A stretch of DNA of 64,000 nucleotides, from positions 434,001 to 498,000 of the forward strand of contig NZ_FWFU01000002.1 of assembly GCF_900172255.1 (NCBI RefSeq), in the 5' to 3' direction. The stretch is from Roseovarius halotolerans (GTDB taxonomy: Bacteria; Pseudomonadota; Alphaproteobacteria; Rhodobacterales; Rhodobacteraceae). Numbering within the stretch: the first letter of the stretch is position 1; every line of letters starts with the position of its first letter. The position numbers and the translations under genes are program-made. Below, piece after piece: positions 7,312 through 53,653 of the stretch. The notes beneath the pieces are model-generated. The model was not told the DNA's origin, ran no database searches, and was given only the letters and a program-made list of their open reading frames with translations.

Positions 7312-8004
7312 ATGTCCGATGACCGCCTGATTGTCGCCCTCGATGTTCCCGACGCGCTTCAGGCGCTCAAGCTCAGCGAGATGCTGGGGCAGGACGTGTC
7401 CTTCTACAAGATCGGCCTCGGGATGCTGACCGGTGGCGGTCTGGGACTGGCCAATGAGCTCAAGCAGGAACATGGCAAGCGCATCTTTTTGGACATGAAG
7501 CTCTTTGATATCGGCGCGACAGTGGAAAAGGCGGTGCGCGGGCTGGCGCAGTTCGATCTCGATTTCCTGACCGTGCATGGCGACCCGCATGTCGTGCGCG
7601 CCGCGCGAGAGGGCGCGTCGGGCAGCAACATGAAGATTCTGGCAGTGACGATCCTCACATCGCTCGACCGCGACGATCTCGATGCCGGCCTGATGCGTCC
7701 GGGCCTCGTCCCCGACCTTGTCGCCGAACGCGCCGCGCGCGCTTTCGAGGCCGGGGCCGATGGTGTCATCGCCTCGCCGCAAGAGGCCGCCATGATCCGC
7801 GCCCTGCCCGAATCGGAGAGCCGCCTGATCGTGACGCCGGGCGTGCGCCCCGCCGGGTCCGACCTCGGCGACCAGAAACGCGTGGCGACCCCGGCGCAGG
7901 CAATCGCGGATGGCGCCGATCACATCGTCGTCGGACGTCCGATCTGGGCCGACCCCGACCCCGCCCGCGCCGCCCGCGCGATCCTTGACGAACTGCCCGG
8001 CTGA
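7312..8004 (+). CDS. pyrF: Orotidine 5'-phosphate decarboxylase
   Basis: 230 residues, usual length. It decarboxylates OMP to UMP, the last step of de novo pyrimidine synthesis. The signature FLDMKLFDIGATV holds the catalytic Asp61, Lys63 and Asp66 (Lys-Asp charge network); VTPGVRP and HIVVGRPIW form the phosphate-binding loops near the C terminus. The start chosen is the ATG at 7312 (MSDDRLIVALDVPD) with AGAGG 9 bases upstream. An in-frame ATG at 7285 would add nine residues and has a poorer binding site. The gene is monocistronic and divergent from clpB. The open frame continues far upstream only because it runs antisense to clpB. Confidence 0.95.
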   Translation: MSDDRLIVALDVPDALQALKLSEMLGQDVSFYKIGLGMLTGGGLGLANELKQEHGKRIFLDMKLFDIGATVEKAVRGLAQFDLDFLTVHGDPHVVRAAREGASGSNMKILAVTILTSLDRDDLDAGLMRPGLVPDLVAERAARAFEAGADGVIASPQEAAMIRALPESESRLIVTPGVRPAGSDLGDQKRVATPAQAIADGADHIVVGRPIWADPDPARAARAILDELPG

Positions 8005-8038: not shown

Positions 8039-8054
8039 CGGGCAGGAAGGGTAT

Positions 8055-8124
8055 CTGTACCAAACTCTTTCCGGCGCGCCCGAATTGCGTACAATAGCGG
8101 CGTACAAAACGTCCGTTTCGTACA
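8055..8124 (-). repeat. Dispersed GTAC palindromic element, copy A
   Basis: Seventy bases, inverted relative to the other two copies. Read leftward it starts with a palindrome of arms GTACGAAACG and CGTTTTGTAC around two bases (8102-8123), then 13 bases ending in GTAC, then 28 bases, then GTACAG. Exactly the same spacing is found at 15462-15531 and 52780-52849. The palindrome ends 16 bases before the dinB start codon, so in this copy it could also affect dinB expression (inference). Confidence 0.8.
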
Positions 8125-15461: not shown

Positions 15462-15531
15462 TGTACGAAACGTCCGTTTTGTACGGCGGTTTTGCACAGA
15501 AATCCGAGATCGCGCCGGAGATTCCGTACAG
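15462..15531 (+). repeat. Dispersed GTAC palindromic element, copy B
   Basis: Seventy bases: palindrome with arms GTACGAAACG and CGTTTTGTAC (15463-15484), 13 bases ending GCAC (GTAC in other copies), 28 bases, then GTACAG. It lies 15 bases after lpxK in the 125-base gap between two genes that end here tail to tail, so it is not in a promoter position. The frame starting at 15461 reads MYETSVLYGGF and stays open through the element. Confidence 0.85.
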
Positions 15532-15572
15532 AACCCGAAACCCCCCGGATTCCGACGCCCGAAATCCGCGCC

Positions 15573-32694: not shown

Positions 32695-32792
32695 GCTTCG
32701 ACGATCCCCCGCGCCCGTGTCGCCCCTGGTGACGCGGGCGTTTCACGTCATGCGCCTTGCCAGCGCGTGGCTTTGCTGAAATGATCGGTGCT

Positions 32793-32950
32793 GTTCTCAG
32801 GGCGGGGTGAAATTCCCCACCGGCGGTAAGAGGCGCGCCAACCGGCGCATCCCGAGCCCGCGAGCGCCCCGGTATCATGGATCATGTCCGGGGGTCAGCA
32901 GATCTGGTGTGACTCCAGAGCCGACGGTTACAGTCCGGATGGAAGAGAAC
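32793..32950 (+). promoter_or_regulatory. FMN riboswitch (RFN element)
   Basis: Closing stem GTTCTC (32793-32798) pairs with GAGAAC (32945-32950). Between them lie the RFN landmarks: AGGGCGGGGTGAAATTCCCC, ACCGGCGGTAA, GAGCCCGCGAGCGC, GGTCAGCAGATCTGGTGT, and GAGCCGACGGTTACAGTCCG with GGATGGAAGAGAAC. FMN binding in such leaders reduces flavin synthesis or uptake. Here it precedes ribH by about 90 bases. Confidence 0.95.
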
Positions 32951-32960
32951 GTCAGGACCG

Positions 32961-38319: not shown

Positions 38320-38446
38320 CCTCGGCCCGGAGCACAGGTTTCCGATAATAGCCGCACGCGTCGCATTTAATCGCCCAAGCGGCGCGGATGCGTCATTTCT
38401 GCACTTGCGAAGCGCCCCCCCTGGCCGTATCTCCGTGCGTGGGACA

Positions 38447-38484
38447 CCCCTCCCCAACGAGGGGCGCTTATCTGGAAGGATAGC
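38447..38484 (+). promoter_or_regulatory. serC leader structure (candidate serC RNA motif)
   Basis: Two hairpins directly before serC: CCCCTC-CCCAAC-GAGGGG (38447-38464) and GCTTATC-TGGAAG-GATAGC (38466-38484). The second places the GGAAGGA Shine-Dalgarno in its loop and 3' arm, ending 4 bases before the ATG. A conserved serC leader RNA is known from alphaproteobacteria (Corbino and co-workers, 2005); the position and the enclosed binding site agree, but I cannot align it here. Confidence 0.5.
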
Positions 38485-38488
38485 ACAA

Positions 38489-52584: not shown

Positions 52585-52619
52585 AAGGTGAGTTCAACAA
52601 AGCGAAAGGAGGTGGTCCA

Positions 52620-52676
52620 GTGTCTATAAAGGGATTGGAGCGAGGTGCCGGGACAGTTCGGGAGGTTGCGACCTAG
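52620..52676 (+). CDS. Possible 18-residue leader peptide
   Basis: GTG start 7 bases after AAAGGAGGTGG, a near-perfect complement to the 16S rRNA end. The frame reads MSIKGLERGAGTVREVAT and ends TAG. The strength of the ribosome binding site is the only coding evidence; it could instead be the 5' arm of an RNA helix. Confidence 0.3.
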   Translation: MSIKGLERGAGTVREVAT

Positions 52677-52744
52677 GGCAGACCCTGGGGAGATGACCCC
52701 ACGAATTGGTGAGTCTAACCGGCCCACCTCCGCTAGCCTTTAGG

Positions 52745-52773
52745 GGGCCGTTCCGGGATCGGAACGGCCCTTT
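52745..52773 (+). terminator. Rho-independent terminator of the small RNA unit
   Basis: GGGCCGTTCC (52745-52754) and GGAACGGCCC (52761-52770) form a perfect 10-bp stem with a 6-base loop, followed by TTT. It is 7 bases before repeat copy C. Confidence 0.75.
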
Positions 52774-52779
52774 GAGTTG

Positions 52780-52849
52780 TGTACGATTTGTCCGTTTTGT
52801 ACGCTGGTTTTGTACCCTTTTCGGGGCAACGGGCAGATAATCTGTACAA
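52780..52849 (+). repeat. Dispersed GTAC palindromic element, copy C
   Basis: Seventy bases with the same spacing as copies A and B: palindrome-like unit with arms GTACGATTTG and CGTTTTGTAC (52781-52802), 13 bases ending GTAC (52812-52815), 28 bases, then GTACAA. The left arm is the most degenerate of the three. It ends 27 bases before the arfB start. Confidence 0.8.
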
Positions 52850-52876
52850 ACCCCGGAATCGAGGGCCAAAAGCGCG

Positions 52877-53395: not shown

Positions 53396-53653
53396 ATGGC
53401 GCGCAACACCTCGGTCGTGCTGAGCGATCATTTTAACGAATTCATAACCAAGGCGGTGGAGAGTGGCCGTTACAGTTCGGCCAGTGATGTTGTGCGCGCG
53501 GGGTTGCGGATGTTGGAGCGGCAGGAAATGGAGCTTGAGTTCAACCGGCTGAAAGCCAGCCTCGAAGAGGCGGACCGACAGGCCGGGGCCGGTGAAACGG
53601 TGGATGTCGAGCTTGAAGGCTTCCTTGCGTCCAGGCGCGACAAGCCGACGTGA
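53396..53653 (+). CDS. parD: Type II antitoxin, ParD/CC2985 family
   Basis: 85 residues, AAGGAGA 7 bases before the ATG. MARNTSVVLSDHFNEFITKAV is the ribbon of the ribbon-helix-helix DNA-binding fold; SGRYSSASDVVRAGLRMLER is the conserved helix pair. The C-terminal half (LKASLEEADRQAGAGE) would wrap around the ParE toxin. It represses its own operon. The parE start overlaps the parD stop by 4 bases (GTGA). Confidence 0.9.
   Translation: MARNTSVVLSDHFNEFITKAVESGRYSSASDVVRAGLRMLERQEMELEFNRLKASLEEADRQAGAGETVDVELEGFLASRRDKPT

Follow-up and report, generated by a model that had tools for sequence, protein, structure and literature searches.

Composite GTAC-box sites dispersed along Roseovarius chromosomes: possible binding sites of a chromosome-organising protein

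Three composite sites and their neighbours

The window considered here is a stretch of 64,000 nucleotides from the 3.7 Mb genome of Roseovarius halotolerans (designated G000 below), in which an earlier note had described three copies of a palindromic element; their positions and strands, as first given, are confirmed by direct reading. Copy A (8047–8124, minus strand; R1, 54.7 bits) lies between pyrF (plus strand, 7312–8004) and dinB (plus strand, from 8140), as assigned by Pfam searches on the neighbours, and stops 15 bp short of the dinB start codon. Copy B (15462–15539, plus strand; R1, 61.5 bits) begins 14 bp past the stop codon of lpxK and is followed by a convergent CoA-transferase gene, such that it does sit between two gene ends, as the earlier note had stated. 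Copy C (52780–52857, plus strand; R1, 53.6 bits) begins approximately 10 bp past a CC2171-like sRNA and is followed by arfB (plus strand, 52877). The sRNA itself (52596–52770, plus strand) is probably homologous to CC2171 of Caulobacter (46.7 bits against a gathering score of 75), with a folding z of -6.0 and a strong terminal hairpin ending approximately 10 bp before copy C; directly after arfB lies a gene for a ParD-type ribbon-helix-helix antitoxin (53396–53653, plus strand).

Each copy is built from 4-bp ‘boxes’, which we number such that position 1 is the base preceding the first GTAC (8124 in copy A, 15462 in copy B and 52780 in copy C). Read directly, the left block of copy A (8102–8123, minus strand) comprises GTAC at 8120–8123, GGAC at 8111–8114 and GTAC at 8102–8105, and its right block (8057–8092, minus strand) GTAC at 8089–8092, 28 bases, and GTAC at 8057–8060. 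The left block of copy B (15463–15484, plus strand) has GTAC at 15463–15466, GTCC at 15472–15475 and GTAC at 15481–15484; here the right block (15494–15529, plus strand) opens with GCAC at 15494–15497, followed by 28 bases and GTAC at 15526–15529. In copy C the corresponding elements are GTAC at 52781–52784, GTCC at 52790–52793 and GTAC at 52799–52802 (left block, 52781–52802, plus strand), then GTAC at 52812–52815, 28 bases, and GTAC at 52844–52847 (right block, 52812–52847, plus strand). The arrangement GTAC-N14-GTAC-N9-GTAC, with at most one mismatch, has three matches in the window against 0.01 expected from shuffled sequence, and 28 bases separate the third box from the final GTACA in all three copies, bearing out the identical spacing originally reported. 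A ‘loose CCC’ that had been listed as a further landmark is of little informative value, as positions 73–76 carry approximately 0.2–0.4 bits across 49 copies from the same genome.

More generally, the site is approximately 75–85 bp long, with boxes (mostly GTAC) at positions 2, 11, 20, 33 and 65 and, in some species, at 74. The box at 11–14, which reads GTCC or GGAC in G000 and GTAC in most other species, places the left boxes on a 9-bp grid. The ‘anchor’ boxes at 2, 33 and 65 lie 31 and 32 bp apart, steps that would each correspond to about three helical turns.

Family size, distribution and species dialects

A search of G000 with the 36-bp left part, allowing up to three mismatches, gave 43 matches, a refined pattern 47 and a looser pattern 52, with none for the reversed-pattern control in any search; the supposed three copies are therefore members of a genomic set of approximately 52. 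Their neighbours are mixed, mostly housekeeping-looking genes (roles judged by eye), so what is found is neither a trio of loose matches nor a single regulon. ‘Dispersed’ is thus an apt part of the initial description as a dispersed small palindromic element, with the copies lying beside unrelated housekeeping genes; ‘palindromic’, in the sense of a REP or hairpin element, is weakened by the results given below.

Beyond this genome, the looser pattern matched 20 of the 84 genomes of the genus (G000 included), 12 of them with at least 15 copies and several of the others with one to six matches each, some doubtful; its reversed control gave one match across the 84, in G061. The remaining 64 genomes have zero matches to this pattern, so the site system is either missing there or has diverged beyond recognition. 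When 295 family genomes from 294 genera were scanned with a stricter profile at E 0.001, matches came only from G000 and from G379, which belongs to another genus and has 14; in the latter (L321–L335) a related box array sits inside a repeated composite of approximately 230 bp, which carries TGTGCAAATTGCACA and GTTAAC motifs and occupies long intergenic regions. Searching the genome and its relatives thus yields a family extending to one other genus. Counts of 110 and 137 obtained in such searches are of hits rather than sites, as weak antisense echoes accompany each site (in the window, three sites give nine hits).

Searches with blastn gave no real match for three sites in a plasmid collection or for one site in a phage collection, a single 28-bp match to Halobellus (E 0.06) not being taken as real; in viral contigs one pattern match was judged to be chance on reading and a second pattern had none. 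No description of these sites in Roseovarius was found in a literature search whose scope left out most subscription journals, and the text of PMC12306157 and PMC3733652 open to a term search makes no mention of Roseovarius.

The fixed geometry is best judged from a set of 127 copies, which also underlies the conservation profile and the swapped-halves pairing comparison described below, and which omits 12 loci (L131, L133, L137, L139, L140, L144, L150, L153 and L156–L159) as duplicates or matches judged doubtful. As the search pattern fixes the left four boxes but does not reach position 65, the last box provides an independent test: either GTAC or GTCCAT (the form seen in G034) begins exactly at position 65 in 100 of the 127 copies, and the only other right-box matches within positions 41–100 are at 74 (11 copies) and 76 (one copy). 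Sixty of these copies, from several species (one third of those from G000 and from its sister species G057, half of those from G034 and all others), form a gap-free alignment of 85 columns, L015, whose last box is farther off, having been removed by hand.

Within this grid each species has its own wording. G000 and G057 share the ‘dialect’ YGTACRAAACGTCCGTTTTGTACG...GTACARAACC, and in G034 the form is TTTYGTACRAAACGTACGAWGTGTACGCGGGTTTTGTACGAAA...GTCCATSATGGACGCAAA, with near-identical 36-mers. The right block of G007 copies, and also of those in G030 and G047, is GTACRASTCGTACGAAA; further dialects occur in G028, G040, G046 and G052, a GTAAG form in G041, and other species again combine different boxes and linkers with the same grid. 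G007 has in addition a second class (type II) that lacks the box at 20, with boxes at 0, 9, 31 and 63 in 16 of 17 copies (18 loci) and one at 62 in the other; this class is more uniform and younger-looking than type I and, at L302, L304 and L305, sits approximately 6–18 bp ahead of a type I copy that looks older and is oriented the same way. At four G034 loci (L045, L056, L060 and L061) the site is found inside a non-coding repeat of approximately 375–510 bp that is 82–94% identical between copies.

Constraint, position relative to genes, and spacing

Each of the G057 sites that were read (30 of 53, mainly the better matches) has an adjacent gene in common with a site of G000. Across 29 such pairs, ungapped identity is 0.93 at positions 1–36, 0.957 at the box at 65–68, 0.675 across the 28-base stretch, 0.563 downstream of the site and 0.752 in the 15 bases upstream, which are often the ends of coding sequences; because positions 1–36 were selected by the pattern, it is the figure for 65–68 that offers a fair test of constraint. 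The 28-base stretch has indeed diverged, as the earlier note had it, yet not throughout, since AAA-TCGG at 39–45 and a T at 62 are conserved, and the proposal that geometry rather than sequence is conserved does not hold, box sequence being conserved too. Of the 25 G034 loci read (from 75 sites), nine group with a G000 site according to their adjacent gene, but in the other dialect.

Could the constraint be on a folded structure, that is, a hairpin element of RNA or single-stranded DNA serving as an mRNA 3' stabiliser, a REP hairpin or an attC-like fold? The 22-bp palindrome is able to fold, and L015, L073 and L083 have strong hairpins in their 28-base stretches. For two stems taken together, however, 79.3% of cells are paired against 78.6% in shuffled alignments, 33 of 500 shuffles being as high, and of five pairing measures two exceed the shuffles by a little (7 and 14 of 500) and three do not, two of these being at or below them. 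Within the 28-base stretch, pairing of a copy's own halves is no better than that of swapped halves in any of four groups (P 0.54, 0.99, 0.24 and 0.35). The search for compensatory stem changes that had been proposed thus leaves hairpin covariation weak or absent, and neither the three window copies nor 15 retrieved loci have an Rfam family at the site. With pairing close to that of shuffles, and no better than that of swapped halves, a folded element is unlikely, and we regard this explanation as highly improbable.

The sites also favour convergent gene ends. According to our own simple gene finder, the 49 G000 sites (of approximately 52) for which locus sequence was used comprise 25 between convergent genes, 18 between tandem genes, three between divergent genes, one inside ispDF and two unclassed; the convergent share is thus 25 of 46, compared with 24 of 159 neighbouring gene pairs over 173 kb of G000, a background that includes the window and seven stretches chosen for sites or ParB-type genes. 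At 30 of the 49 loci a same-strand gene has its stop codon 1–15 bp before the site begins. This avoidance of promoter regions tells against ordinary operators, the regulon of a TetR-type repressor, an alternative suggested originally by the TetR-like look of the 22-bp palindrome and by copy A, which lies just before dinB. The palindrome makes up just the opening third of a longer fixed composite, the conserved unit being approximately three times its length, and with three of 46 sites between divergent genes and a mixed set of housekeeping neighbours, we think it very unlikely that the sites are operators of this kind.

Sites are mostly single and tens of kilobases apart, with 52 to 75 of them, and mean gaps of 44–67 kb, in the three best-studied species. 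Compared with simulated uniform placement, they are spaced more evenly than expected. In G034, 59 of the 75 sites, on nine contigs, have a coefficient of variation (CV) of 0.584 against 0.913 at random (P 5e-5); in G000, for 52 sites from the union of four genome searches, the values are 0.712 and 0.961 (P 0.01; for 51 sites, P 0.014); and in G007, for 62 loci among the matches listed of 137 hits, after merging of tandem pairs, they are 0.62 and 0.975, none of 20,000 simulations being as even. Divided into twelve 240-kb bins, contig C1 of G007 has 3–6 loci per bin, with a largest gap of 155 kb, again among the matches listed. When restricted to the 24 sites that match the pattern on the large contig, the spacing in G007 is not even (CV 0.84, P 0.30), so the evenness in this species depends on the type II sites. 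A KOPS-like polarity is not apparent, as 27 of 50 contig C1 loci among the matches listed are co-directional with the replication fork, taking parB as a proxy for the origin.

Placement behind genes might also be explained by a protein ‘roadblock’ that stops transcription, chiefly between convergent genes, and both the 30 sites just past a same-strand stop codon and the convergent excess would be consistent with this. A terminator acting gene by gene would not, however, be expected to recur at regular intervals of 44–67 kb, and approximately 52 sites would serve few of the gene ends in a 3.7 Mb genome. Copy C is, moreover, already preceded by an sRNA with a strong terminal hairpin, the copy at L016 by a hairpin and T run (judged by eye), and the ispD site lies within a gene; taken together, these points make the roadblock improbable in our view.

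Change in place, insertion, and a putative organising protein

The ispD site allows a comparison of relatives with and without boxes in coding sequence. The closest named relative of the G000 IspDF protein comes from Roseovarius sp. EGI FJ00037 (91%). Boxes lie antisense in the ispD coding sequence of G000, G057, G034, G007, G047, G030, G040, G021, G036 and G065, with partial forms in G082, G014 and G050 and a GTAA form in G024, G019 and G041; box-less relatives have ordinary ispD sequence of the same length at that place, and no gap or indel is seen in the aligned stretch. The 28-base stretch of the site is native ispD sequence, encoding the IHDVAR region, whilst the right box is of each species' own type (ATACATGATGGACG in G034, GTACGAGTC in G007 and GTACGAGTCGTACGA in G047 and G030). 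The lack of an indel, combined with species-own right boxes, favours rewriting in place over insertion at ispD. Tyrosines at every third residue of the protein (AYxxYxxY) stem from the 9-bp GTAC grid, which suggests that selection for a DNA site has here reshaped a protein.

The lpxK locus points the other way. Among 30 loci, the site follows the gene in G000, G057, G034 and G052 and is degenerate in G021 and G073; of the 24 site-less loci, 14 have the same convergent neighbour (by eye). The distance from lpxK to the next called gene is 125 bp in G000 and G057, 102 bp in G034 and 94 bp in G021, compared with -10 to 68 bp in 12 of those 14 site-less loci, the others being G045 (110 bp) and G008, which falls outside the measurement; relatives with an empty site look strongly diverged at the lpxK junctions. 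Given the shorter site-less regions, either the site mostly accompanies added DNA here, or the other species have lost it.

This length difference is good evidence for what we consider the main rival, a non-autonomous mobile element of the REPIN or MITE kind, in which a putative transposase would read the boxes, copies would spread in bursts, and gene ends would be the places where insertion is tolerated. REPINs are reported to be mostly extragenic, with conserved ends at a fixed distance and a less conserved spacer (PMC3116915, from the part of that text drawn on here). Roseovarius sites match them in the fixed distance between conserved ends, in the variable spacer and in being extragenic save for one of the 49 G000 loci (ispDF), but differ in their asymmetric box order, their little or no hairpin covariation, a spacing more regular than random and the one site in coding sequence. 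Uniform, species-specific expansions (the near-identical 36-mers of G034 and the type II class of G007), the tandem placement of type II just upstream of older-looking type I sites, and the carriage of the site by the G034 non-coding repeats are all as expected of an element that spreads. Target immunity of the kind known for Mu or Tn7 would account for regular spacing, so that transposition could also produce even placement.

Against mobility stand the ispD site, with no indel and a native 28-base stretch, and the sharing of all 30 sampled sites between G000 and G057, that is, zero turnover in the sample; the site-less G045 lpxK region is also long, at 110 bp, and the plasmid (three sites) and phage (one site) collections hold no real match. 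A Y1 transposase match is absent in G000 and G007: for the RAYT family (PF01797) neither genome has a match, G034, G057, G047, G030 and G040 are not among the matches listed, G036 has a match, G028 has one at the cut-off and G046 one below it. On balance we consider a mobile origin doubtful, if still a serious contender. The ends of Mu- and Tn7-like transposons likewise carry several transposase boxes in fixed order, and Tn7 inserts behind a gene end; the several ordered boxes are common to both, but nothing of that kind was encountered at the sites that were read, and the ispD site again lacks an indel.

Synthesising these findings, our best reading, which we put forward tentatively and as somewhat short of probable, is that the sites are bound by a putative, fast-evolving chromosome-organising protein; that some protein binds them we consider likely. 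In a speculative model, a sequence-specific protein, probably made up of several cooperating subunits, would contact the 4-bp boxes at 2/11/20, 33 and 65/74, with the subunits sitting on one face of the helix and the anchor boxes about three turns apart. Some 52–75 such sites would be kept round the chromosome, mostly just past gene ends and sparing promoters, and the most likely role would be in nucleoid organisation, for example in bridging, anchoring or marking chromosome segments. We further speculate that the specificity of the protein drifts between species and that the set of sites follows, a co-evolution that would give rise to species dialects on one grid.

Several observations sit less comfortably with an organising protein: evenness is lost for the 24 pattern-matched G007 sites, the P value for G000 is only 0.01 and, as elsewhere, against uniform placement, 64 of the 84 genus genomes have no pattern match, and no cognate protein was found among PF02195 matches in 12 genomes or, by eye, among neighbouring genes. 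A ParB/Noc paralogue was tried as the cognate protein and rejected: each of the 12 genomes has one strong PF02195 match, and the varied weaker ones do not follow the sites. The genes around clustered sites, read by eye for a candidate binding protein, showed nothing recurrent.

In its presumed working, an organising protein of this kind would resemble the dispersed site systems of Noc (Bacillus) and SlmA (Escherichia), with tens of sequence-specific sites, in similar number, on one chromosome, although the features that define those systems were not found here. Noc has approximately 70 sequence-specific sites round the Bacillus chromosome, which are single palindromes and are absent from the terminus region (PMC4331003, from those parts of the paper used here). 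The Roseovarius site is instead a 75–85 bp multi-box composite, no G007 gap exceeds 155 kb among the matches listed, such that no site-free terminus is seen, and no ParB paralogue tracks the sites in the 12 genomes. Unlike integron attC sites, which form arrays of cassettes, the Roseovarius sites are mostly single and tens of kilobases apart. DNA uptake sequences of Neisseria resemble the present sites in being dispersed, in having species dialects and in often lying behind genes, but are 10–12 bp long and number in the thousands, against approximately 50 long composite sites here.

A stronger form of the organising-protein reading would be a lineage-specific system, in which a multi-subunit protein of rapidly evolving specificity is served by approximately 50–75 regularly spaced composite sites, rewritten in place even within coding sequence and with a dialect for each Roseovarius species; we see this as possible, if rather less than probable. 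Were it true, it would amount to a bacterial analogue of insulator or loop-anchor codes and, if the sites mark regular segments, would permit a direct test of the division of the nucleoid into domains. The dialects on one grid would also provide a natural series for following the co-evolution of a DNA-binding protein with some fifty sites.

Lastly, RNA elements were recorded away from the three copies and at one G034 locus. The window contains an FMN riboswitch (32789–32954, plus strand) and a serC leader (38437–38488, plus strand), both above the gathering score, and in the metK-trmB region of G034 a SAM/SAH riboswitch occupies positions 208–256 of L047.
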